Part shown: positions 29,990 through 54,564 of the stretch, piece by piece
Numbering within the stretch: the stretch's first letter is position 1
Layout: the number at the start of each line of letters is the position of its first letter
Source of the DNA: Qipengyuania psychrotolerans
GTDB taxonomy: Bacteria; Pseudomonadota; Alphaproteobacteria; Sphingomonadales; Sphingomonadaceae
Assembly: GCF_019711355.1 (NCBI RefSeq)
Contig: NZ_CP081297.1
Coordinates: 2,067,001 to 2,131,000, forward strand
Reading direction: 5' to 3'
Length of the DNA stretch: 64,000 nucleotides
Made by a program: the position numbers and the translations under genes
Notes under the pieces: generated by a model
The model's database searches: none
What the model was told of the DNA's origin: nothing
The model's input: the letters and a program-made list of their open reading frames with translations, nothing else

Positions 29990-30015
29990 GGAACCTGCGT
30001 AGCGATTCTTCCGTT
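29990..30015 (+). promoter_or_regulatory. EcfG-dependent promoter of the single-domain response regulator
   Basis: GGAAC (29990-29994) and CGTT (30012-30015) with a 17-base spacer, matching the general stress sigma factor consensus. It lies 72 bases before the response regulator start. Confidence 0.75.
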
Positions 30016-30087: not shown

Positions 30088-30495
30088 ATGTCCATTCCTC
30101 GCTACGTCCTCGTGGTGGAGGACGAAGCTATTCTAGGTCTGCAACTCGAAGATGCGCTCCTTGACGCAGGCGTCGAGAAGGTCGAAATTTGCTCGACCAC
30201 CGAGGCAGCGCTTGCATCTTTGAAGCGGAGCCAGCCCGATGTCATTGTGCTCGATGTCCACCTGGCTGACCGGGACGATGGTTGGGCGATTGCCGAACTG
30301 GTAAGGGAACTTGGTCCCGACAGTCCGCAGATCGTGTTTTCGACTGGCCAGCCGGAAGATATTCCTCAGGATATCGCCGAGCTCGGATACGTGCTTCAAA
30401 AACCGTATGATCCGGAGGTTCTCGTGGACCTGCTCAGCAAACCCAAAAAACGCGGCGTGATCTCGCGCATCAAGGGTGCATTGCGCGACGCCTGA
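30088..30495 (+). CDS. Single-domain response regulator
   Basis: A 135-residue receiver without an output domain. Acidic pocket Glu11-Asp12, phosphoacceptor Asp56 in VLDVHLADRDDGW, Thr86 in VFSTGQ and Lys105 in LQKPYD. The Thr segment resembles but does not match the FATGUY motif of stress-pathway receivers such as SdrG (usually PFxFATGY). A short basic tail follows. Its own EcfG promoter and its position next to phyR indicate membership of the general stress response, probably as a phosphate shuttle or sink for HWE kinases; that role is inferred from relatives. Confidence 0.88.
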   Translation: MSIPRYVLVVEDEAILGLQLEDALLDAGVEKVEICSTTEAALASLKRSQPDVIVLDVHLADRDDGWAIAELVRELGPDSPQIVFSTGQPEDIPQDIAELGYVLQKPYDPEVLVDLLSKPKKRGVISRIKGALRDA

Positions 30496-30698: not shown

Positions 30699-31445
30699 TT
30701 AAACGAAGGGTCGATGCGAAGGCTTGGAGCGTTCGAAACCTACCAGTTTCGACGCTTTCTCCATGTCAGGCACGCAAATCTCGCGCGGGGACCATTGGAT
30801 CAGGCCGTCCCGGTCAAGCGCCCTCAGAGTGCGGTTGGTATGTACGAGAGAAAGACCAAGCATATCGCCAATCTGCGCCTGCGTGATCGAAAGGTGCAGT
30901 CTGTTTCCCTTCTTGGCGACGCCGGTCGCGAGCGCTCGGTCCAGCAGCCACACTGCCAGATAGGCGACCCGTTCGCGTGCGCTGCGCTGACCGAGTGACA
31001 CGATGTGGCCTTCCAGTGCCGTCTCCTCCTTCGCTGCCAGCCAGGTAATGTCATAGCCGAGCCGCGGATGCTCCTTGATCAGCGAGACAAAATCGTCCCG
31101 CTTGAACCGGCACAATCTGGCAGGCAGCAAAACCTCGACCGAATGACTGAGCTCTTCCTCGAACGCTCCCTGCAACCCGACGAGATCGCCGGGGAACATG
31201 AGGTTCACGATTTGGCGGCGGCCGTCTCCAAGTGTCCTGTACCTGATCGCAACACCCTCCAGGATCGTGAAGAGGTGCTTGGTGCACTCATCTTCTTCGA
31301 GAATGGTATCGCCGCGTTCAAACCTGAACTCGCCCTGCTTGATGGATTGCATGTAAGCCTGCTGGATGCTTTCGAGCGGCCGCAAACCCGGGCAATCCTG
31401 CAACGGACAGTTTTGACATTCATACGGATCGGAAACTTCAAACAT
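30699..31445 (-). CDS. Fnr/Crp family regulator with N-terminal cysteine cluster
   Basis: About 248 residues: a cyclic-nucleotide-binding-like sensor domain at about 25-140 and a C-terminal winged helix. The N-terminus has Cys10-x2-Cys13-x4-Cys18, and Cys112 in ARLCRFKRDDF sits where FNR has its fourth cluster ligand, so an oxygen-sensitive 4Fe-4S cluster is plausible. The recognition helix LSLVHTNRTLRAL lacks the ExxSR of FNR, so the DNA site probably differs from TTGAT-N4-ATCAA. I prefer the ATG at 31445 (GGGGG upstream) over one at 31505, which would add 20 residues. Confidence 0.85.
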   Translation of the reverse strand: MFEVSDPYECQNCPLQDCPGLRPLESIQQAYMQSIKQGEFRFERGDTILEEDECTKHLFTILEGVAIRYRTLGDGRRQIVNLMFPGDLVGLQGAFEEELSHSVEVLLPARLCRFKRDDFVSLIKEHPRLGYDITWLAAKEETALEGHIVSLGQRSARERVAYLAVWLLDRALATGVAKKGNRLHLSITQAQIGDMLGLSLVHTNRTLRALDRDGLIQWSPREICVPDMEKASKLVGFERSKPSHRPFV

Positions 31446-31542
31446 CGCGGCCCCCTGCCGGATATTCCGGCCTTCTCGTCCGGCCGCTTCGTCGGCGTCC
31501 GCCATACATTTGTCAATTACGACAATTTCCGCGCCGATATGA

Positions 31543-31567
31543 GGAACTCTTGGTCTATAGAGCCGTT
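31543..31567 (+). promoter_or_regulatory. EcfG-dependent promoter of phyR
   Basis: GGAAC (31543-31547), a 16-base spacer, CGTT (31564-31567): a perfect general stress promoter 29 bases before the phyR start, implying positive autoregulation. Confidence 0.8.
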
Positions 31568-31596: not shown

Positions 31597-32385
31597 ATGT
31601 CGCTTGGTGATCAAATCGCAAAAAATCTGCCTTACCTGCGCCGCTATGCGCGCGCTCTAACCGGCTCTCAGGCAACCGGTGATGCATTCGTCAGGGCCAC
31701 GCTTGAAGCCGCCCTGGCAGATGAGGGGCTCAAGGCCTCGCTGGAAGGTGGCCGCGTGCCGCTCTACCGCGCCTTTAACAAGGTCTGGTCGAGTGCGTAT
31801 CTGGACGTGCCCGATGCCGTTGGCGAAGACCATGAAGGTGCAGCTCAGGATCGATTGAAATCGATCACGCCGCTGAACCGTCAGGCATTGCTGCTGACTA
31901 CTCTCGAAGATTTCTCGGTCGAACAGGCCGGTGAAGTGATGGAACTGGAACCTGCTCAGATCGAACGGTTGGTGCAGGAAGCGGTCAGTGAGATCGATCG
32001 GGAAAGCTCGACCAGCGTTCTCATCATTGAAGACGAGCCGCTCATTTCGATGCAGCTCGAAGATCTCGTGACCTCGCTCGGCCATGAAATCTGCGGCACC
32101 GCAGCTACGCGCACACAGGCGCAAGAGGTGGTCGCACAGAAGACTCCCGGCCTTGTCCTGGCAGATATCCAGCTTGCAGACGGATCTTCGGGTCTTGATG
32201 CTGTCGACGATATCCTCGCAATCGACAGCGTGCCGGTTATCTTCATCACCGCTTATCCCGAACGTCTGCTGACCGGCGATCGTCCCGAGCCGACTTACCT
32301 CGTGACCAAGCCGTTTCAGGAACAGACAGTCCGCACGGCGATCAGCCAGGCACTGTTCTTCGGATCCAGCCGCCCGCTGGGATAA
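31597..32385 (+). CDS. phyR: General stress response anti-anti-sigma regulator PhyR
   Basis: 262 residues. The N-terminal half is a sigma-factor-like domain (IAKNLPYLRRYARALTGS, TPLNRQALLLTTLEDFSVEQ) that mimics EcfG. The C-terminal half is a receiver with Glu145-Asp146, phosphoacceptor Asp190 and Lys238. On phosphorylation by HWE kinases PhyR binds NepR and frees EcfG. The ATG at 31597 has GGAAGGGG just upstream. An EcfG promoter precedes it and a terminator follows. The CHASE-HWE kinase is encoded convergently next door. Confidence 0.97.
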   Translation: MSLGDQIAKNLPYLRRYARALTGSQATGDAFVRATLEAALADEGLKASLEGGRVPLYRAFNKVWSSAYLDVPDAVGEDHEGAAQDRLKSITPLNRQALLLTTLEDFSVEQAGEVMELEPAQIERLVQEAVSEIDRESSTSVLIIEDEPLISMQLEDLVTSLGHEICGTAATRTQAQEVVAQKTPGLVLADIQLADGSSGLDAVDDILAIDSVPVIFITAYPERLLTGDRPEPTYLVTKPFQEQTVRTAISQALFFGSSRPLG

Positions 32386-32495: not shown

Positions 32496-34148
32496 CTATG
32501 CGCCGGGTTGCGGTGTCGTACGCAGGGTGAACTCATCCCGCTTGCGCACCGGTACCAGCAATTTGCAGCGAACTCCTGTTGGGAGGAACTCCAGCTCGAC
32601 CGGATGGCGTAGTTCATGGGCGACGATCTTCTCGATCAAGTCAGTGCCAAATCCGCGCTTCTGCGGCTCAACGACGCGCGGCCCGCCGCTTTCGGTCCAG
32701 TCGACCCGCGCGAGGCGTTCATTCACCAAGGTCCAGATAATCGCGATCTTGCCGCCTGGAACACTCAGGGCACCATACTTCGCCGCATTCGTAACCAGTT
32801 CGTGGACAGCAAGGCCTAATGATAGGGCGTCGTTGGGAGCCAATTCGACATCGGGCCCTTCGGCGACAATTTCGTGATCCTGATCGTTCGTATACGGGGC
32901 AAGCTCGACCTGGATTACCGAACTGAGGGGGGTCGAGCCCCATTCCGAGTGCGTCAACAGGTCATGAGTAGCTGATAGCGCCCGGATACGGCTGTCGATA
33001 CCTTCCGCGAAATCATCGAGATTATCGGCTCTGCGACGGGTCAGCGACACGATGGAAAGGACATTCGCGAGCGTATTCTTGACCCGGTGATTGAGCTCCC
33101 GCGTCAGTGAGTTGCGAATTGAATTTTGTTCGGCGAACCAATCAAGGGAGCGGCTGTCTTCCTGTGCCTGCTGTGTAAGAAGCCTGGCGACCACCAGTAA
33201 CAGGCTGGCAACAGCCAGCCCGAACAACAGCGTGATCATGGACATCGATGAGAGTGTCTGGTCGGAGGTTGACTGGACAACCAGCATCATTTCACGATTG
33301 GCGAGGCTGACCTTGCGCTCAACAGTTTCGTGACCGGACTGCCAGGTAGACAATTCCGCAAGCAGGTCCCTGCCATCGTCAGCGACATCATAAAGCCGGA
33401 CACCGCTGTCTTCGCCGGCTACCAGTTCGGCTGCGGAAGAGAGAAACTGATTTGCGGTGAAGGGGCTGTAGACGAAGCCCTTGAGTCTGCGATCTCCGGG
33501 CCCGCCTTCGTAGACCGGCATATATATAATGAAGCCGGGTTCAGTACCACCGCCCTCCTGGATCAAGGTGATCCTGCCGGTAGCGGTCGGGCGTTCCGTG
33601 CGGGTCGCTTCGTCCATCGCGGCTCGCCGTACCGGCTCTGAATACATATCAAACCCAAGTGCGCGCCGATTCCTGAGCGTGTCCGGTTGCAGGAAAAGAA
33701 CCGGCACGACTTCGGACCGGGGCTCTGCCGCAATGCTTGGAGTGACCCGAATGCGCGAAACTCGCCCCTCGCTCAGAATGTCTTCTATCGCGGCAACTTC
33801 GCCAGAACTGACAACCGGCGCCCATCCGATACCTTCAGCACCGCGGTAGTCTGCATCGAGCCGCAATTCTGCGACAAACTGGCGGAAGGTTTCAACGCCG
33901 ACCTCGTCCTGCGAACTGAACAGCGCAGCGGCTGCCCTCAAGAACGCGGAGTTCGAATATGCCCGGCGTTCGACAGCGGAAACCATGGCTTGCGACTTGC
34001 GGCTCAGCTCCGCGCTTTCGCGCACGCGCTGCCCACTCTCGATCGCGAACACGCTGACCATTGTCACAGCCGCGACCAGGAGGAAGATCAGCAACGGAAC
34101 TGCGCGCGGATAATCGACCAGCCAACGCTGGCGCCTGCCCCTTTGCAA
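32496..34148 (-). CDS. CHASE-domain HWE sensor histidine kinase (PhyK-type)
   Basis: 550 residues: a transmembrane segment at 16-37, a periplasmic CHASE-type sensor at about 60-270 (GIGWAPVV, RRALGFDMYSEPVRRAAMDE), a second transmembrane segment at 303-325, then the kinase core with His354 in RELNHRVKN, HELVTNAAKYGAL and W-x-E at 484-486, the HWE signature. Its place between phyR and nepR-ecfG identifies it as the cognate stress kinase (PhyK; the related Erythrobacter kinase is called GsrK). The start appears to be TTG, and I see no ATG before the first membrane segment. Ligand unknown. Confidence 0.9.
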   Translation of the reverse strand: MQRGRRQRWLVDYPRAVPLLIFLLVAAVTMVSVFAIESGQRVRESAELSRKSQAMVSAVERRAYSNSAFLRAAAALFSSQDEVGVETFRQFVAELRLDADYRGAEGIGWAPVVSSGEVAAIEDILSEGRVSRIRVTPSIAAEPRSEVVPVLFLQPDTLRNRRALGFDMYSEPVRRAAMDEATRTERPTATGRITLIQEGGGTEPGFIIYMPVYEGGPGDRRLKGFVYSPFTANQFLSSAAELVAGEDSGVRLYDVADDGRDLLAELSTWQSGHETVERKVSLANREMMLVVQSTSDQTLSSMSMITLLFGLAVASLLLVVARLLTQQAQEDSRSLDWFAEQNSIRNSLTRELNHRVKNTLANVLSIVSLTRRRADNLDDFAEGIDSRIRALSATHDLLTHSEWGSTPLSSVIQVELAPYTNDQDHEIVAEGPDVELAPNDALSLGLAVHELVTNAAKYGALSVPGGKIAIIWTLVNERLARVDWTESGGPRVVEPQKRGFGTDLIEKIVAHELRHPVELEFLPTGVRCKLLVPVRKRDEFTLRTTPQPGA

Positions 34149-34266: not shown

Positions 34267-34291
34267 GGAACCCGATCTGCCTGTTTGCGTT
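34267..34291 (+). promoter_or_regulatory. EcfG-dependent promoter of nepR-ecfG
   Basis: GGAAC (34267-34271), a 16-base spacer, CGTT (34288-34291), 88 bases before nepR. A perfect consensus, so the sigma factor probably activates its own operon. Confidence 0.8.
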
Positions 34292-34378: not shown

Positions 34379-34561
34379 ATGACATCTCCAGTACCTTCCG
34401 AAGGAAAGTTGCCTGCGGGCAAGAGCCGGAAGTCGGACAGCGGCGCAGATGACAAGCCTCAATGGGCGAACGGTCTGCGACAGCTTTACGATTCCGTGGT
34501 CGAAGAGCCGCTGCCTGATCAATTCAAGGATCTGCTTGCGAAATTGGATTCGAAGGACTGA
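34379..34561 (+). CDS. nepR: Anti-sigma factor NepR
   Basis: 60 residues. A flexible polar N-terminus precedes the two short NepR helices, WANGLRQLYDSVVEEPLPDQF and DLLAKLD. NepR holds EcfG inactive in unstressed cells and is sequestered by phosphorylated PhyR. The size and the PLPDQF segment between the helices are typical. Its stop overlaps the ecfG start by one base (TGATG), coupling anti-sigma and sigma synthesis. An EcfG promoter lies upstream. Confidence 0.95.
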   Translation: MTSPVPSEGKLPAGKSRKSDSGADDKPQWANGLRQLYDSVVEEPLPDQFKDLLAKLDSKD

Positions 34562-35169
34562 TGGAGCCCGCGAAACGTACGGCCTCCGAGAAAGCCGATT
34601 TCAAACGCGAGTTGACCGATGTGGTCCCCCACCTGCGTGCATTTGCGCGCGGCCTGTGCGGCCGTGCCGACATGGCCGACGACCTCGTGCAGGAAACACT
34701 CCTCAAAGCTTGGGCTGCCCAGGAGCGGTTCCAACCCGGCACCAGTATGCGCGCGTGGACCTTCGTGATTTTGCGCAACGCCTATCTTACCGACATGCGC
34801 CGCAATCGCTTCCGCGGAGAATATGACGAAACGGTCGCCGAGCGCATCTTGACGGCTCCGGCCGGGCAGGAAGAACCTATCCACTTGTCCGACATGCACC
34901 GTGCGCTGCTAACCCTTCCGCCGGAACGCCGCGAAGCGCTCCTGCTCGTGGGCGCTGGCGGATTTTCCTACGAGGAAGCGGCAAATATCTGCGGCTGTGC
35001 GGTTGGCACCATCAAGAGCCGCGTCGGGCGCGCCCGGGCAACGCTGACCTCCATGCTGGAAGACGGTTCCATCCCGAGACGATCGGTCGATGATGATACG
35101 GCTCACCGTGCTATTCTCGAAGAACTGGACGAGGTTGCCGCTGGCCAAGGCGCTTCGGCAAACAGCTGA
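34561..35169 (+). CDS. ecfG: General stress ECF sigma factor EcfG
   Basis: 202 residues with region 2 (VVPHLRAFARGLCGRADMA, DLVQETLLKAWAAQERF, MRAWTFVILRNAYLTDMRRN) and region 4 (LPPERREALLLVGAGGFSYE, AVGTIKSRVGRARATL). These are the ECF15/EcfG features, recognising GGAAC-N16/17-CGTT, of which three perfect copies are found nearby. It is the second gene of nepR-ecfG. A C-terminal acidic extension of about 30 residues follows region 4. The AI-2E-type membrane protein gene is 54 bases downstream and may share the transcript. Confidence 0.97.
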   Translation: MEPAKRTASEKADFKRELTDVVPHLRAFARGLCGRADMADDLVQETLLKAWAAQERFQPGTSMRAWTFVILRNAYLTDMRRNRFRGEYDETVAERILTAPAGQEEPIHLSDMHRALLTLPPERREALLLVGAGGFSYEEAANICGCAVGTIKSRVGRARATLTSMLEDGSIPRRSVDDDTAHRAILEELDEVAAGQGASANS

Positions 35170-47721: not shown

Positions 47722-47746
47722 GGAACGGTTTGCGATTCTGATCGCT
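47722..47746 (+). promoter_or_regulatory. Near-consensus EcfG promoter upstream of bphO-bphP
   Basis: GGAAC (47722-47726), a 16-base spacer, CGCT (47743-47746) in place of CGTT. One mismatch to the consensus; 116 bases before the heme oxygenase start. Confidence 0.4.
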
Positions 47747-47841: not shown

Positions 47842-48378
47842 ATGCGAAACGAATTACGGAAAACAACGCGCGAAGCGCATGATCGGCTCGATCAGTTGGC
47901 ATCTGGCCTGCCAGTGGTCTCGCGCGCGACGTATATAGCATTTCTTCAGGCTCAAGGCCGTGCGCGGCTGGCGGCCGAGTCCGCATTCCGGCACACCGCT
48001 CCCACTCATCTTCTGCGTCCTCCTGTTCAAGGCCCTTTGATCCGAACAGATCTGGAAGAACTTGGGGCGCAGCTACAGCCTGCGGGAATGGTGCTGACTT
48101 TCGCCTCTTCCTGCGAAGCGCTTGGCGCGGCGTGGGTGATTGCAGGCTCCTCGCTTGGCAACAGGGCCATGCTCCTGCAGCGGCAGAAGGCCGGCCTTTC
48201 AGGGGCGGAACGTTTCCTGTCCGATCCGCGAATGCCCGCCTATTTCAAGGACGTCCTCGTAGCACTGGAGGAACCGCGTGACGCGCGGTCGCAGCGTGAT
48301 TTATTGTCCGGCGCCGCCAATTGTTTCTCCCTTTTCGAGCGCGCTTTTGCCGCGCTTCCTGAAAGCCTGGCTGCGTGA
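47842..48378 (+). CDS. bphO: Heme oxygenase (biliverdin-producing), BphO type
   Basis: 178 residues. The proximal heme ligand is the His in RKTTREAHDRLD near the N-terminus, and the distal helix is WVIAGSSLGNRAML. It opens heme to biliverdin, the chromophore of the phytochrome encoded next. The start of bphP overlaps its stop by four bases (GTGA), a strong sign that the two act together. A near-consensus EcfG promoter lies upstream. Confidence 0.92.
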   Translation: MRNELRKTTREAHDRLDQLASGLPVVSRATYIAFLQAQGRARLAAESAFRHTAPTHLLRPPVQGPLIRTDLEELGAQLQPAGMVLTFASSCEALGAAWVIAGSSLGNRAMLLQRQKAGLSGAERFLSDPRMPAYFKDVLVALEEPRDARSQRDLLSGAANCFSLFERAFAALPESLAA

Positions 48379-50942
48379 ACATTCACACGAAAGACATCGA
48401 GCTGACCGAGTGCGATCGCGAGGCCATTCACCACATCTCCGCCATCCAGGATTTCGGCGCGTTGATCGCTGTAACGAATGACTGGAATGTCGCTCATCGA
48501 TCAAGGAACATCGCGGAGATTATAGGCGACTCCTGCGATCCCGAAATTGGTGACCCGCTGGCGGATTACTTTTCGTCAGATGCGATCGCAGAACTGCGGC
48601 GGGCCACTTCGTCCCTGTTTGCAGCCGATACGGTAGAGCGCCTGTTCGGTGTCGATCTTCGCGGTGACGGCAATCTTTTCGATTGCGCCGTCCACCAGAG
48701 CAACAACTTGCTGGTAATCGAGATCGAGCCGCACGAGGTCGAGGCAATCGATCGCGGATTACGCATTATCCGTCCCGTCGTAAGCAAGCTGGAACAGCAC
48801 GATTCCTATCGCTCTCTTGGCGACGAGGCCTGCCACTTCCTGCGCGATATGCTCGGTTATGACCGGGTCATGTTCTACCGCTTCCTCCCGGACGAAAGTG
48901 GGCAGGTCATCGCCGAGGCCAAGCGCGACGATCTCGAGACCTATCTCGATCTGCGCTATCCCCAAGCTGATATTCCGCAGCAGGCACGCGCGCTTTTCGT
49001 CAGGAACCGGTTCCGTATAATTGCCGACATGTCGGCTCCTTCGATACCGGTTGAGCCGGCCATCGGCGCGGACGGCGTGCCGCTCGATATGAGCATGTCC
49101 ACGCTGCGCGCCCATTCGCAAATGCATGTCGAATACATGCGCAACATGGGTGTCGGCGCATCACTCGCGATTTCGATCGTCATCGATGGAAAGCTATGGG
49201 GCATGTTCGCATGCCATCACCACGAGGCGCGATCGTTGTCCTATGGTCTGCGTACCGTTGCGGAACTGTTTTCCGAACTTGTGTCGCTTGTCATCGAACG
49301 CCTGGGGAACCGCAAGGTAGCGAAACGCGTCGAGGCCAGCCGCGAACTGCACGATCGCCTGATCCGCAGTTTCGCAGACGGCGCGGCTCTTTCCCAGTCG
49401 CTGCCCAGCCTCGATCCGATCATTTCCAGGGCGATCGATATCGACGGGATCAGCATCTTCATTGATGGTTCTTACAACGCCAAGGGCCATGCCCCGACGG
49501 AAGAAGAATTCCTGTCGATCCTGCCGCAATTGAATGCCTCGGCTGACGGCAGGTTGATCATTACTGACAATCTGGCCGAAAAATTTCCAGGCGCCGGGTC
49601 GTTTCCCGCGCGCGTCGCCGGTGCAATCATCCTCTCCATTTCACGCAGGCCCCGCGACTATTTCATCCTGTGGCGGCGCGAAGAATTGCAGAACGTGACC
49701 TGGGCCGGGAAACCCGGGAAACTGCAACCCGATAGCTCCAATGGAAACCGTATCAGCCCGCGCAAGAGTTTTGGTGCGTGGGAAGAGACCATGCGCGGCC
49801 GGTCGCGGGAATGGTCACATCCCGAGCAGAAGCTGGCAGAGAGCCTCAGAAGTTCGCTGCTGGAGGTCATCTTGCGACTGACCGACGAACAGGCGAAAGA
49901 GCGCGCCCGGGCGCAGCAGCAGCAGGAATTGTTGATTGCAGAACTCAATCACCGCGTGCGCAATATTCTCAACCTCATCCGCGGATTGATCAACCAGTCG
50001 CGCGGCGAAGCTGTCTCGATCGATGATTTTTCGGAAATCGTCGGCGGCCGCATCTCTGCGCTTTCCCTGGCCCATGACAACATCACCAAGGGCAATTGGT
50101 CATCCGCTCCGCTGAGCGAGCTGATCAACTCGGAGGCCGATGCCTATCTTGCAGGCAAGACCGATCGGGTCCTGGTCTCCGGGCCCGAAGCCCTGATCAA
50201 TCCCGAAGCCTACACCGTGCTGGCCTTGGTCATCCACGAGATGATCACGAATTCTGCCAAATACGGCGCGCTATCCGACGGCTCCGGCGTTCTGAAGATC
50301 GGCATCGAAAAGGCTTCCGATGGGGCGCTGGAATTGAGCTGGAAGGAAATCGGCGGTCCGCCTGTTCAGGCCCCCGAACGTCGCGGTTTCGGATCCACCA
50401 TCGTGGAGCGTTCCATTCCGTTCGAGTTGAACGGCGAAGCCGAGGTGCGGTTCGAATTGAGCGGTGTCGAGGCGCGCTGGTGCATTCCAGCCAAATATGT
50501 CAGCTGGGGCGAAACTCGCGCGACAGTGAACGAGCAGGTGCAAAAGGAAAAAGACATCCAGCCTACTATGACAAGCGAACCGCCCAAGACCGTCCTTCTT
50601 GTCGAAGACAGCATGTTGATCGCCCTCGACACGGAAGATTGCCTGAAAGAGCTGGGTGTGACGACCGTCCTGGTCGAAAGCACGGTTCAGGGCGCCATCG
50701 AAATCCTGGCAAACAAGACGCCCGATGCCGCAATTCTCGACTACAATTTGGGCAGCGAGAATAGCGAAGGAGTGGCCGAGGCTCTTGCCAAACGCGGCAT
50801 CCCCTTCTGGCTCGCAACCGGATATGGCGAGATGAAAGACCGTGCCGAAGTTCTGGGCGCGTCCGGCTTGCTTACCAAGCCTTATGGCAGAGACGAACTC
50901 ACCGGATTACTCGCCGCATACGCCAAACAGAAGAACACCTGA
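48375..50942 (+). CDS. bphP: Bacteriophytochrome HWE histidine kinase with C-terminal FATGUY receiver
   Basis: 855 residues, GTG start. PAS at about 15-120 with the biliverdin-attaching Cys13 in TECDREAIHH; GAF at about 135-305 with D199-I-P and His247, His251 and His281 around the chromophore; PHY at about 315-495 with the tongue motif PRKSF at 462-466; HWE kinase with His526 in ELNHRVRN, HEMITNSAKYGAL and W-x-E at 656-658; receiver at about 738-850 with Glu744-Asp745, Asp789 and Lys835. The segment PFWLATGYG (810-818) is the FATGUY motif of general stress receivers. All this points to red/far-red control of the PhyR pathway. Confidence 0.95.
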   Translation: MNIHTKDIELTECDREAIHHISAIQDFGALIAVTNDWNVAHRSRNIAEIIGDSCDPEIGDPLADYFSSDAIAELRRATSSLFAADTVERLFGVDLRGDGNLFDCAVHQSNNLLVIEIEPHEVEAIDRGLRIIRPVVSKLEQHDSYRSLGDEACHFLRDMLGYDRVMFYRFLPDESGQVIAEAKRDDLETYLDLRYPQADIPQQARALFVRNRFRIIADMSAPSIPVEPAIGADGVPLDMSMSTLRAHSQMHVEYMRNMGVGASLAISIVIDGKLWGMFACHHHEARSLSYGLRTVAELFSELVSLVIERLGNRKVAKRVEASRELHDRLIRSFADGAALSQSLPSLDPIISRAIDIDGISIFIDGSYNAKGHAPTEEEFLSILPQLNASADGRLIITDNLAEKFPGAGSFPARVAGAIILSISRRPRDYFILWRREELQNVTWAGKPGKLQPDSSNGNRISPRKSFGAWEETMRGRSREWSHPEQKLAESLRSSLLEVILRLTDEQAKERARAQQQQELLIAELNHRVRNILNLIRGLINQSRGEAVSIDDFSEIVGGRISALSLAHDNITKGNWSSAPLSELINSEADAYLAGKTDRVLVSGPEALINPEAYTVLALVIHEMITNSAKYGALSDGSGVLKIGIEKASDGALELSWKEIGGPPVQAPERRGFGSTIVERSIPFELNGEAEVRFELSGVEARWCIPAKYVSWGETRATVNEQVQKEKDIQPTMTSEPPKTVLLVEDSMLIALDTEDCLKELGVTTVLVESTVQGAIEILANKTPDAAILDYNLGSENSEGVAEALAKRGIPFWLATGYGEMKDRAEVLGASGLLTKPYGRDELTGLLAAYAKQKNT

Positions 50943-50951
50943 CGCAGCGGA

Positions 50952-51677
50952 TCAGTTGAAGAAGCGCTGTTGGTAATAGAACGGCGCCGATACGGGTTCG
51001 CCCGAGGCGTTGCGGGCCGGCTCGAACCGCAATTGTTCCAGCGCCAATTGGCAGACAGTCCTGTCCGTTTCGGGGAACGGGCTGGCACGATAGACCGAAC
51101 AGCTTGTCGCACGCCCTTCCGCCGATACCGAAAGTTTCACGATCACCGACTTCCCGATGCGCGCCTCGCGCCCGCCGGGCGGCACTGGAAAGGCGCGAGC
51201 ATCAGTAATTGCACGGACCAGTACAGGCTTGGTGGCAGCTACGCCCCCCTGCCCAGATCCGCCCAGACCCGCGCCAGTTCCAACGCCGCTACCTGCCGCC
51301 CCGGTTCCGCTGCCCGCCTCGGTTGCACCTGAATCGGTCGCCGTGCCAGTCGACGCGGCACGCGGCACTGGCCTGTCCTCGCGAATTTGCTGACGAGGGG
51401 TGGGTGCAGTGACCGGCTGCGGGACGGCTTCTCGTCCCGGATCGCCCTGAGCACCTTCATCGGGCTGCGGTTCGACTTCCGGGGCTTCCTCCTCCGGCGT
51501 AGTGACGGTCACGGTGAAGGCAGACACGACCTCCCGTTCGACCGAGGCGACCACACTGGGCGCCAAACCACGTATCAATACGTAGAACATCCCGGTGTGA
51601 ATCAACAGGATAAGGGCGATAACCCAGCCATTGGGCCGCCGTTTGGTTGTGCTGAAGTTGGAATTACTTGCCATCAT
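50952..51677 (-). CDS. TonB family energy transducer
   Basis: About 241 residues: an N-terminal membrane anchor (GWVIALILLIHTGMFYVLI), a Pro/Glu- and then Gly/Ser/Thr-rich periplasmic linker, and a C-terminal TonB domain (GKSVIVKLSVSAEGRATSCSV, PETDRTVCQLALEQLRFEPA). It transmits proton-motive energy to outer membrane receptors such as the one encoded 4 kb away. Two adjacent ATGs (51677, 51674) are candidate starts. ExbB/ExbD are not in the window. Divergent from the hybrid kinase. Confidence 0.85.
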   Translation of the reverse strand: MMASNSNFSTTKRRPNGWVIALILLIHTGMFYVLIRGLAPSVVASVEREVVSAFTVTVTTPEEEAPEVEPQPDEGAQGDPGREAVPQPVTAPTPRQQIREDRPVPRAASTGTATDSGATEAGSGTGAAGSGVGTGAGLGGSGQGGVAATKPVLVRAITDARAFPVPPGGREARIGKSVIVKLSVSAEGRATSCSVYRASPFPETDRTVCQLALEQLRFEPARNASGEPVSAPFYYQQRFFN

Positions 51678-51759
51678 TGCAGTCAAACTACGCAAGCGAT
51701 GCCAGCGTTCCAAGGCCCGAGTGAAAGTCCCCAAAGGACCAAACAAAGGACGACGACGA

Positions 51760-54564
51760 ATGGCAACCCGATTGCTGCCTGCAATGCCCTCTGGAAATTG
51801 GGCCAATGCACTCCCGGACAAGCGCAGCCTTTTAGCCGCTGTGACGGGTTTCGCAGCGTTTGGGATCCTCGCCTACCTCAGCATTGAACTGACGCGCGGT
51901 GCTGGGCGCATCGCGGTTGTCTGGCTGCCCAATGCAATTGCTGTCGCGGCCATGCTGCGCATAAGTATCCAGCGCGAATGGGTGCTGCTGGCGGGACTTT
52001 TCGCGGGCAATCTCACTGCCAATCTGGCAGTTGGCGATGCTGCTGTGACCGGGATAATTCTTTCGGTCGCAAACCTCACCGAAATTGCGCTGGCGGTGTT
52101 TCTCGTCCGTAAATTTGCCGGTCCTCGCCCACGGATGGAGGAGTCGCGCGATCTGCTGCAATTCTTCCTGAGTGCCGGATTGGTTGCACCACTTGCCTCG
52201 GCCACGATCGCCTCGCTCGCCTTGCACACCGCCGGCGCTACCCTTCAAGGCGTGCTGAACTGGGCCGTGTCGGATTCGTTGTCGATGGTTATCCTCGCTC
52301 CGAGTATGCTTGTCTTCTGGGACGCCTTGGCTGCCCCTCGCCTGCCCAAGAAGCGAAGGCTTTTCGAATGGGCGGTGCTCACGGTGGCGGGTACAGCAAC
52401 CGTCCTCTTCGTGTTCCTGCAGAACGATTATCCGTTTCTATTCCTGATCCCGCCGCTGGTCGTTTGCCATGCATTCCGGCTTGGTACTTTGGGGACGGCA
52501 TTTTCGGTTCTGAAGGTCGCCATCATCGCACTTGTGTGCACTCAGATGGGCTTCGGCCCGGTCAATCTTAATCCCCTCCCGACTGACGAACAATTGCTGG
52601 TTCTGGAAGCGTTCCTGGCTTCGTCGATGCTGGTCGGCCTGCCCGTAGCAGCCATCCTTTCGACCCGCGACAGGATGGCGCGTGAAGTGAGCATGGCAAA
52701 GAAGCAGTTCGCGCTCCTCGCGGAGAATATTACCGACGCTGTGTTGCGCTACGATCTCCACGGCGTGTGCACCTACGCCTCGCCCTCGGTCGAGCGCGTG
52801 CTTGGCTGCGATCCATCGGACCTTATCGGCATGACGACCGGGGAACGCGTGCACCCGGAATCGCGCGAAGCCATCGCCTCATGCGAAGACCGCTTGCTGT
52901 CAGGAAAGAGCCAGAGCGAGCGGTTTACCTATCGCCGGTTCCTTGATGATAGCGAGGGCAGACCGGTCTACATTGAAGCCGACTGCGCACTGGCCTTCGA
53001 TACGGTGACCGGGGACCGAGAAGGGATCGTGGTTTCCGCGCGTGATGTGACGAACAGGGTAATGCTCGAACGCAAGTTGAAATCCGCCACGAATCACGCC
53101 GAAAATGCAGCCCGCGCAAAGGCGCAATTCCTGGCCAACATGAGCCACGAAATCCGCACACCCATGAACGGCGTGCTGGGCTTCGCCGACCTCCTCGCGA
53201 GGATGGACCTCGACCCCGAAGCTGCGCGCTATGCCGAGCTCATCTCTCGATCGGGACATTCGATGATGATGCTCCTCAACGACATTCTGGACATCTCGAA
53301 AATCGAATCCGGTCAGTTGGTGATCAGCGAGGAATCATTCGAACTGCCGCGCTTGGCCGAAGATTGCGTCAGGCTTCACATGGCGGGGGCCGAGCGCAAG
53401 GGCGTCGGCCTGGCGCTGACTTGCGCATCCGACGTTCCTGAAAGGATCCTAAGTGATCCTCTTCGCCTGCGGCAAATCCTGCTCAACCTGATCGGTAATG
53501 CGGTCAAATTCACCGAACATGGGCAAGTGGAAATTTCGGTAATGCGCGAGAATGAGCAGCTTGCGATTTCCGTCGAGGATAGCGGTATCGGTATCGATCC
53601 GGACCGTATCGAGCACATCTTCGATCCATTCATTCAGGAAGAAGCGAGCACCACGCGGCGGTTCGGGGGAACGGGTTTGGGTCTGTCCATCTCGCGGCAG
53701 CTAGCCGAACTTCTCGGCGGCAAACTGACTGTAGATTCCATGCCGGGCGTCGGCTCGCGTTTCTCGCTTCGTATACCGCTGGAAGAAGTGCTCCACCGCG
53801 ACCCGGATGGCGGCCCCTTGGACCGGCGGGCCAGTCAGCCAGCAGCACCGCCGCCATCAGCGCGCGTCCTTTTGGCAGAAGACCACGACGTGAACCGGTT
53901 GCTCGTAACCGCGATGCTCGAAGAGCTCGGCCAGGAAGTCACCATAGTCCATGACGGCACGCAGGCTATCAGCGCAGCCCTTGAGGGCGCCGCGAATGGG
54001 CAGCCCTTCGACCTTGTCCTGATGGATATCCAGATGCCAGGCTGCGACGGCTATGCGGCATCGCAGGCAATCAGACGCGGCGGACTTTCGGCCAGTGCCT
54101 TGCCAATCATCGCGCTCACGGCAAACGCGTTTCCCGAAGACATCGCCGCGGCCCGGGATGCAGGGATGCAGGGCCACCTCGCCAAACCATTGGTGTTCGA
54201 GGCACTGGCCGCGGTGCTGGCGCGCTGGCTGCCGGTGACCATCGTGTCGGGTCAGACAAGCGGTTTGACCAAACCAGCCCGGACCCGGAGCGAGGGGCGC
54301 CATTCCCCCCAGATGATCGAACTTTGGAATAGCCGCAGGGCGGAAGCGATCGGTGCGGTCACGATTGCCGTACAGCAGGACAAACTCGAAGGCGTGCGCA
54401 TCGAGGATCTCGCCCGCACTGTTCACAAGCTTGCAGGCACTGCCGGAATGTTCGGGGAAGAAGAACTCGGCGAAAAGGCCGCTGCGCTCGAGCGTGCATT
54501 GCGATCCGGGGTCGAGGCTGAGGTTCGGCGCAAGCTGGCCGAAGAACTGCTCGCGGCGGCCTGA
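51760..54564 (+). CDS. MASE1 hybrid histidine kinase with PAS, receiver and HPt domains
   Basis: About 934 residues. An N-terminal MASE1-type membrane sensor of eight or so segments (to about 290) contains VVWLPNAIAVAAML; a PAS domain follows (ENITDAVLRYDLHGVCTYAS), then HisKA with the phospho-His in FLANMSHEIRTPMNGVLGFADLL, HATPase (NLIGNAVKFTEHGQ, FGGTGLGLSISRQL), a receiver (VLLAEDHDVNRLLVTAML, LVLMDIQMPG) and a C-terminal HPt with His in LARTVHKLAGTAGMFG. A complete phosphorelay in one chain. Its final response regulator is not identified here. AAGGA lies before the ATG at 51760. Confidence 0.92.
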   Translation: MATRLLPAMPSGNWANALPDKRSLLAAVTGFAAFGILAYLSIELTRGAGRIAVVWLPNAIAVAAMLRISIQREWVLLAGLFAGNLTANLAVGDAAVTGIILSVANLTEIALAVFLVRKFAGPRPRMEESRDLLQFFLSAGLVAPLASATIASLALHTAGATLQGVLNWAVSDSLSMVILAPSMLVFWDALAAPRLPKKRRLFEWAVLTVAGTATVLFVFLQNDYPFLFLIPPLVVCHAFRLGTLGTAFSVLKVAIIALVCTQMGFGPVNLNPLPTDEQLLVLEAFLASSMLVGLPVAAILSTRDRMAREVSMAKKQFALLAENITDAVLRYDLHGVCTYASPSVERVLGCDPSDLIGMTTGERVHPESREAIASCEDRLLSGKSQSERFTYRRFLDDSEGRPVYIEADCALAFDTVTGDREGIVVSARDVTNRVMLERKLKSATNHAENAARAKAQFLANMSHEIRTPMNGVLGFADLLARMDLDPEAARYAELISRSGHSMMMLLNDILDISKIESGQLVISEESFELPRLAEDCVRLHMAGAERKGVGLALTCASDVPERILSDPLRLRQILLNLIGNAVKFTEHGQVEISVMRENEQLAISVEDSGIGIDPDRIEHIFDPFIQEEASTTRRFGGTGLGLSISRQLAELLGGKLTVDSMPGVGSRFSLRIPLEEVLHRDPDGGPLDRRASQPAAPPPSARVLLAEDHDVNRLLVTAMLEELGQEVTIVHDGTQAISAALEGAANGQPFDLVLMDIQMPGCDGYAASQAIRRGGLSASALPIIALTANAFPEDIAAARDAGMQGHLAKPLVFEALAAVLARWLPVTIVSGQTSGLTKPARTRSEGRHSPQMIELWNSRRAEAIGAVTIAVQQDKLEGVRIEDLARTVHKLAGTAGMFGEEELGEKAAALERALRSGVEAEVRRKLAEELLAAA

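Follow-up and report, generated by a model that had tools for sequence, protein, structure and literature searches.

An EcfG-type promoter element conserved upstream of a type-2 bacteriophytochrome operon in Qipengyuania psychrotolerans and its relatives

The bphO-bphP operon of Qipengyuania psychrotolerans, which encodes a predicted heme oxygenase and a bacteriophytochrome with a fused receiver, is probably an output of the general stress response in its clade, because an EcfG-type promoter element is conserved at the same place upstream of the operon in relatives. The operon lies in the window analyzed here, a 64,000-nucleotide stretch of contig NZ_CP081297.1 (assembly GCF_019711355.1, positions 2,067,001 to 2,131,000), which also carries phyR, nepR, and ecfG at a distance of about 13 to 16 kb from bphOP (Table 1; all positions are those of the window). 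By its sequence the operon is of the already known type-2 (Agp2-like) kind and is conserved; the promoter-based stress output is the new and best-supported point of this analysis. An earlier reading of the sequence alone (the sequence-only reading) had proposed a red-light input to general stress. The parts that it named (photosensor, HWE kinase core, receiver, and promoter) are present, but an effect of light on the stress response is unproven. The EcfG-type promoter makes the operon a likely EcfG target and therefore points in the reverse direction.

TABLE 1 Features of the bphOP operon and of the general stress response locus in the window
Feature	Position	Strand	Basis
EcfG promoter of phyR, GGAAC-N16-CGTT	31543..31567	+	Pattern search
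phyR, general stress response regulator	31597..32385	+	Pfam PhyR_sigma2, PhyR_sigma-like, and Response_reg (scan of the longer open reading frame from 31570); gene-model start
CHASE-HWE kinase of the phyR locus, located where Sphingomonas has PhyT/PhyP	32496..34148	-	Pfam
EcfG promoter of nepR-ecfG, GGAAC-N16-CGTT	34267..34291	+	Pattern search
nepR (34379-34561) and ecfG (34561-35169)	34379..35169	+	Pfam
EcfG-type promoter element GGAAC-N16-CGCT, ending 95 nucleotides before the bphO start	47722..47746	+	Pattern and conservation
bphO, predicted heme oxygenase (178 amino acids), expected biliverdin supplier	47842..48378	+	Family profile, fold match, His13, GSSLG
bphP, PAS-GAF-PHY-HWE kinase-receiver bacteriophytochrome (855 amino acids, GTG start)	48375..50942	+	Open reading frame, Pfam, PDB, alignment
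Photosensor module PAS_2-GAF-PHY (residues 13-501), expected biliverdin-binding Cys13	48411..49877	+	Pfam; PDB 6g1y, E 2e-96
HWE histidine kinase core (residues 523-707), His526, N626, W656xE658	49941..50495	+	Pfam HWE_HK, 69.3 bits
FAT GUY-like receiver (residues 740-844), Asp789, PFWLATGYG 810-818	50592..50906	+	Pfam; PDB 2lpm, 5ieb

An EcfG-type promoter element upstream of bphO

The near-consensus EcfG promoter that had been claimed upstream of the operon is there, and its conservation exceeds chance. Compared with GGAAC-N16/17-CGTT, the site has GGAAC and the spacer, both of them conserved, and differs in a single base, with C as the third -10 base where the phyR and nepR promoters of the window have T. 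Conservation was counted across the Erythrobacteraceae-type loci that contain bphO and the DNA before it, 38 in all (the window included; one of them, L071, is from Novosphingobium). GGAAC-N16/17-CG[CT]T lies 647 to 695 nucleotides before bphP in 12 of these, with 0.53 sites expected from the remainder of the loci, and in 3 of 29 other loci (0.49 expected). Six family genomes fetched later added the EcfG-like element in both same-genus genomes (L210 and L211). This count at a fixed distance from bphP replaced two earlier ones, one with guessed start codons (10 of 64 loci, four without a start having been dropped) and one that was anchored (7 of the 27 Erythrobacteraceae-type loci kept from 40, and 0 of 17 others).

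GGAAC alone occurs 620 to 740 nucleotides before bphP in 23 of 27 loci without a PpsR-like element (described below), in none of 13 PpsR-type loci, and in 5 of 33 others, with L071, L212, L213, and L239 placed among the latter. In the non-PpsR loci, seven flanking intervals gave 1 to 4 occurrences in 26 or 27 loci, and control words gave 6/27 and 1/27. When the 24 sites are aligned on GGAAC, 23 have T at +24 and 19 have G at +22; most spacers differ between sites, which suggests selection on the element. On a BphP tree of 48 rows, the window belongs to a 15-row group that has support and in which 13 rows carry the EcfG-like element; the distribution of this element needs 4 changes on the tree, versus 12.4 after shuffling.

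Several observations weigh against an EcfG promoter at this position. Of the 14 Erythrobacteraceae-type loci bearing the element, 13 have CGCT and not CGTT as the -10, and CGCT was allowed in the pattern only after the window's own site had been seen. It does not satisfy the motif published for Sphingomonas melonis, GGAAC-N17-20-GTT (PMC6599016). The rows of the promoter counts are related by descent and are not independent trials, and the same-family loci L212, L213, and L239, which group with the outgroup rows on the BphP tree, have neither the EcfG-like nor the PpsR-like element at the bphO position. Genome-wide, GGAAC-N16-CGYT has 61 matches, fewer than the 121 of a reversed control pattern, and the lone site at bphO therefore means little. 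In addition, 32 of the 44 CGCT sites in the genome lie inside predicted genes. Nevertheless, among GGAAC-N16-CGTT sites 15 of 17 are intergenic, and among CGCT sites 12 of 44, against a background of about 11% (binomial p 6e-13 and 0.003, respectively). This background was measured on the 20- to 64-kb part of the window with a simple gene model, which missed bphO and nepR, so that the bphO site was counted as intergenic and not as gene-upstream. Intergenic enrichment thus supports the CGTT sites strongly and the CGCT sites moderately.

Alternation with a PpsR-like element in relatives

A second type of element occupies the bphO position in other relatives. TGT-N12-ACA, the published recognition sequence of CrtJ (PMC5362033), is found mostly as TGTCA...GACA 652 to 726 nucleotides before bphP in 12 of the 38 loci, with 1.91 sites expected; the later-fetched L238 is the thirteenth such locus, and an occurrence at 855 nucleotides in L041 was set aside as off-position. 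The PpsR/CrtJ-like loci are L050, L052, L058, L061, L066, L068, L069, L072, L073, L074, L075, L094, and L238. No locus carries the EcfG-like and the PpsR-like elements together at the bphO position, and the PpsR-like element needs 3 changes on the BphP tree, versus 11.6 after shuffling.

Among genomes with the PpsR-like element, 11 of 12 have photosynthetic reaction-center genes (PF00124), compared with 3 of 12 for the EcfG-like element and 6 of 14 for genomes lacking both. The Fisher p of 0.003 for PpsR-like versus EcfG-like genomes ignores relatedness, includes several metagenome-assembled genomes, and leaves out the L238 genome. PF00124 genes were not found in the window's genome. These patterns point to PpsR as a possible regulator of bphOP in the photosynthetic relatives. 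As a CGTT version of the EcfG-like element is present in Ponticaulis (L083 and L084) and in L082, an outlying locus of the Sphingomonadales, the change between the two elements may have gone either way.

The bphO heme oxygenase

The arrangement of bphO and bphP as an operon with a four-base overlap, as previously described, was confirmed: in the list of open reading frames, the GTG start of bphP lies inside the end of bphO, within GTGA at 48375-48378. Among 80 fetched loci, bphO is directly upstream of bphP on the same strand in 66, 42 of which have the 4-bp overlap. In the remaining 14 it is on the opposite strand (four loci), downstream (one), or was not found (nine, among them L040, which is truncated at a contig end).

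The identification of bphO as the chromophore gene is likewise supported, at the level of a predicted activity, by its family profile and predicted fold. The lone BphO sequence matched Pfam weakly (E 0.088, below the cut-off), and this test was set aside in favor of a family profile and a structure model. Against PDB, the single sequence matched 1j77 at E 2e-4, and a profile from 29 BphO sequences matched the bacterial heme oxygenases 1j77 (E 8e-22) and 1sk7 (E 4e-20), with no further match up to E 0.1. Scanned singly, 15 of these 29 family members match Pfam Heme_oxygenase at E ≤0.1. The structure model (predicted local distance difference test score, 95.8) has 1sk7 and 1j77 as its top fold matches, followed by further heme oxygenases, and the proximal His13 and the Gly-rich distal helix GSSLG are present.

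Domains and photosensor class of BphP

BphP has the full photosensor and HWE kinase core attributed to it before. Pfam places PAS_2 at residues 13-119, GAF at 150-306, PHY at 323-501, HWE_HK at 523-605, and Response_reg at 740-844, all above the curated cut-offs; that for HWE_HK is 22.8 bits. The kinase core has the H-box HRxxN, the N-box, and WxE, and its matches among solved kinases are 5epv and 6ph4, both blue-light-activated. The BphP core thus resembles those of the light-oxygen-voltage (LOV)-HWE kinases of the general stress response in Alphaproteobacteria, in which a photosensor also drives an HWE core. LOV-HWE kinases have a flavin blue-light sensor and, unlike BphP, usually lack a fused receiver. 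The key residues of these domains are present (Cys13, His526, Asn626, Trp656/Glu658, Glu744/Asp745, Asp789, Thr815, and Lys835). His526 is encoded by CAC at 49950 and Asp789 by GAC at 50739-50741; the latter residue is invariant across a 31-row alignment.

Bacteriophytochrome hallmarks comprise the N-terminal Cys13, Asp199 of the DIP motif, His251, His281/282, and the tongue PRKSF at 462-466. The best PDB match of the photosensor is 6g1y (Agp2), and Pfam shows the HWE kinase and C-terminal receiver that mark the type-2 class. The BphPs of Agrobacterium and Allorhizobium (Agp2/AtBphP2 and AvBphP2) have the same domain order, with an HWE kinase and a C-terminal response regulator (PMC11021371, PMC8117939).

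Bathy phytochromes are described as commonly, though not strictly, having Gln at PASDIP-3 and Gly at PRXSF-8, and as having Arg at PRXSF-3, a tongue of +5, and an HWE output with a linker of -3 relative to DrBphP, the tongue length also being found in most BphPs (PMC12362586). BphP shares with the Agp2-like proteins the +5 tongue (37 residues), a linker of 47 residues (that of DrBphP -3), and Arg at PRXSF-3. Unlike Agp2-type bathy phytochromes, it has Leu193 instead of Gln at PASDIP-3 and Ser454 instead of Gly at PRXSF-8; two same-genus relatives differ from it in carrying Gly at the latter position. With this mixture of bathy and nonbathy traits, the dark state could be of either kind, and red light is one possible active signal. 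A full-length model (predicted template modeling score, 0.53) was discarded for placing the receiver, as its domain arrangement was too uncertain.

The FAT GUY-like receiver

The SdrG-type motif ascribed to the fused receiver was found as PFWLATGYG, which has Leu where the PFxFATGY type that defines FAT GUY receivers has its second Phe. The nearest solved relatives of the receiver are 2lpm (61 bits) and then SdrG of S. melonis Fr1 (5ieb; 54 bits), ahead of PhyR receivers, in accordance with the motif. The PFxxATG motif, acidic pair, Asp, Thr, and Lys are shared with SdrG, a FAT GUY family member (PMC5898713), and with the 2lpm regulator. SdrG is a single-domain protein, whereas the BphP receiver is fused to its kinase.

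The frequency of this receiver was surveyed through the PHY domain and not through the receiver, giving 27 places in 24 of 289 genomes of the class and 85 places in 66 of 398 genomes of the phylum. All 27 class and 72 of the 85 phylum places were read, six being common to both lists, for 93 places. The 80 fetched loci had been found partly by a receiver pattern and were excluded. All 32 alphaproteobacterial HWE-plus-receiver BphPs, the window's included, carry a FAT GUY-like motif by a loose pattern written after the sequences had been seen, and 26 carry the strict form; outside the Alphaproteobacteria, one of five does (in G601). The other 56 places lack it, and only four of them have a receiver (L136, L144, L145, and L227, two being cut by the locus end), so that the fair contrast is 0 of 4. 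Within the window's genome, which has 33 receivers, the strict motif was found only in BphP among the 27 tested by sequence. A FAT GUY-like receiver is, on these sequences, usual in the alphaproteobacterial HWE-plus-receiver class, and its combination with an HWE core is therefore no special sign of a stress kinase. Such use of the combination was dropped; it also occurs where PhyR was not detected.

Signal transfer and output of BphP

The reading that we favor, with reasonable though incomplete confidence, is an Agp2-like operon with a phosphorelay in cis to the receiver and EcfG-type transcription, through which stress raises the photoreceptor. BphO would make biliverdin, which BphP would bind at Cys13. 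Light would determine how actively the HWE core autophosphorylates at His526, and the phosphoryl group would pass in cis to Asp789, so that the FAT GUY-like receiver would act as a sink or relay and be the main output port. Transcription of the operon in the clade would proceed from the EcfG-type promoter, and stress would raise the amount of photoreceptor.

A stress input, in which the HWE core, or the SdrG-like receiver via a PhyT-like phosphotransferase, alters PhyR phosphorylation in response to light, is possible but not probable, and feedback of BphP into PhyR is unproven. S. melonis offers a precedent in the relay Pak-SdrG-PhyT-PhyR, which combines HWE/HisKA_2 kinases with a FAT GUY regulator (PMC5898713). 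The proximity of phyR, nepR, and ecfG, the uniqueness of the strict motif among the receivers tested, and the similarity of the BphP receiver to SdrG favor such an input. The single-domain regulator at 30088, which was considered as an SdrG partner, scores lower against SdrG (31 bits) than the BphP receiver does; this candidacy is weakened, as the regulator is closer to PhyR 4qic (35 bits) and has FSTGQ in place of the FAT GUY motif.

Co-occurrence with PhyR is also suggestive, as a PhyR-like sigma2 match is present in 30 of the 32 alphaproteobacterial genomes with HWE-plus-receiver BphPs (weakest E 1e-19); of the two exceptions, G128 has a match of only E 2e-13 in a 201-amino-acid frame, and G218 has none. 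In the class draw, a sigma2 match at E ≤1e-18 served as the PhyR proxy (59 of 289 genomes; short non-PhyR frames are also caught). It was found in 7 of 9 genomes with HWE-plus-receiver BphPs, compared with 52 of 280 others (p 0.0003), but this association is not clearly stronger than that of genomes with other BphPs (6 of 15; p 0.10).

Moreover, seven genomes with HWE-plus-receiver BphPs gave no full-length PhyR-like match in searches with PF22029 and with the PhyR protein: the alphaproteobacterial G218 (strict motif) and G128 (loose) and, outside this class, G601 (strict), G339, G552, G581, and G592. In all seven, similarity to the PhyR protein is confined to its receiver part, and matches to PF22029, where there are any, are short and weaker. 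The protein search was added because PF22029 also matches some extracytoplasmic function (ECF) sigma factors, and it is itself imperfect: in G216 it matched only the receiver, although PF22029 found sigma2 in a 259-amino-acid frame. PhyR is likely absent from the seven genomes, in which BphP probably has another partner. A further point against the input is that the ATP-binding domain of the phyR-locus kinase looks intact by eye, whereas PhyT/PhyP of Sphingomonas are described as degenerate (PMC5898713).

Literature searches, in the text portions available, found no link of a phytochrome to PhyR or EcfG. A phytochrome-like stress kinase had been attributed to related Erythrobacter strains by the sequence-only reading; other Erythrobacter stress kinases are reportedly GsrK and GsrP, either of which may be phytochrome-like. 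The names gsrK and gsrP did not turn up in the papers that a text search for them listed. A paper citing an Erythrobacter stress study speaks of a LOV kinase (PMC12148442).

Cyclic di-GMP as the output, with the kinase-receiver unit activating a diguanylate cyclase by analogy with BPHP-15570 of Erythrobacter flavus 21-3, appears rather doubtful. BPHP-15570 is a probable ortholog of BphP, judged from its description: its 2,547-bp gene encodes PAS, GAF, HK, and receiver domains, a heme oxygenase (HO) gene lies directly upstream as bphO does here, and the genome holds a LOV kinase, as here (PMC12172448). The reported output is a diguanylate cyclase, on the basis of two-hybrid contact with DGC-0450 and of cyclic di-GMP levels that were higher under 940-nm light upon coexpression; H524G and D742G mutants showed no light difference, and the gene could not be deleted (PMC12172448). 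The figure legends give coexpression of the mutants with HO and do not name DGC-0450; the term EcfG is absent from the paper, and no PhyR or EcfG tests were seen in the text covered (PMC12172448).

The window's genome has 12 GGDEF matches, in keeping with a cyclic di-GMP output. Against it, 940-nm light and a 970-nm peak are outside the usual range of biliverdin phytochromes. The D742G substitution seems, by comparison with homologs, to hit the acidic pocket and therefore probably does not probe the acceptor: 20 of the 120 homologs listed have His524, position 742 is the acidic-pocket Asp (Asp745 here) in 7 of the 20, with the acceptor at 786, and the phosphoacceptor is at 782-795 in every homolog in which it was located.

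Similarly doubtful is a receiver that is a mere phosphate sink silencing the kinase, with signaling by protein contact and not by phosphotransfer. Wild-type Agp2 did not autophosphorylate, and only receiver-Asp mutants did so, independently of the Pr (red-absorbing) or Pfr (far-red-absorbing) state, in work from one laboratory (PMC8117939). Receiver-Asp mutants were also used for AtBphP2 and AvBphP2, in which that residue is described as affecting the kinase (PMC11021371). The role of the fused receiver in control, which had been called unsettled, is thus partly informed by Agp2, where the receiver Asp governs detectable autophosphorylation. However, bathy BphPs reportedly have their autokinase activity inhibited in the dark (PMC11021371), and the receiver of BphP keeps its catalytic residues, including the invariant Asp789.

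Under the stress-output reading, EcfG would be the sigma factor that reads the CGCT variant of the -10. Another ECF sigma factor is an unlikely reader of the GGAAC element: the -10 is mostly CGCTT in the clade and the genome holds four further, weaker ecfG-like matches (identity ≤32%), but phyR, nepR-ecfG, and the 30088 regulator carry GGAAC-N16/17-CGTT in the window, and in relatives the -10 at this position is CGCT, CGTT, or GGTT, always after a spacer of 16. A more elaborate scenario, in which the photoreceptor was rewired between photosynthesis (PpsR/CrtJ) and stress control and BphP replaces SdrG in cis, closing a light-stress loop via the phyR-locus kinase to PhyR, is quite improbable.

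Other features of the window and genome

The 30088 regulator is preceded by a perfect GGAAC-N17-CGTT at 29990-30015, beginning 98 nucleotides before the gene, by which it is probably part of the stress regulon. Between it and phyR, a Crp/Fnr-type regulator with the N-terminal Cys cluster CQNCPLQDC is encoded at 30699-31505 on the reverse strand. Just past bphP, at 51631-54564, lies the gene of a hybrid histidine kinase that combines MASE1 and PAS with receiver and Hpt domains, with an opposite-strand open reading frame (50952-51821) at its start. The genome holds eight HWE kinases. A LOV-like HWE kinase elsewhere in the genome (L007, G000:C1:1687885-1691136), with the LOV-typical motif NCRFLQ, is a possible blue-light counterpart of BphP.

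Biological implications

For Agp2 and similar bacterial phytochromes, the response regulator that they target has been described as still to be found (PMC8117939). Should BphP feed PhyR, this would be without a demonstrated precedent among phytochromes, within the literature text searched. The stress-type promoter places the sensor within the biology of the cell: stressed cells would see red and far-red light better. That a single conserved spot holds either an EcfG-like or a PpsR-like element offers a case for asking how control over a light sensor is handed on as lineages lose or gain photosynthesis.

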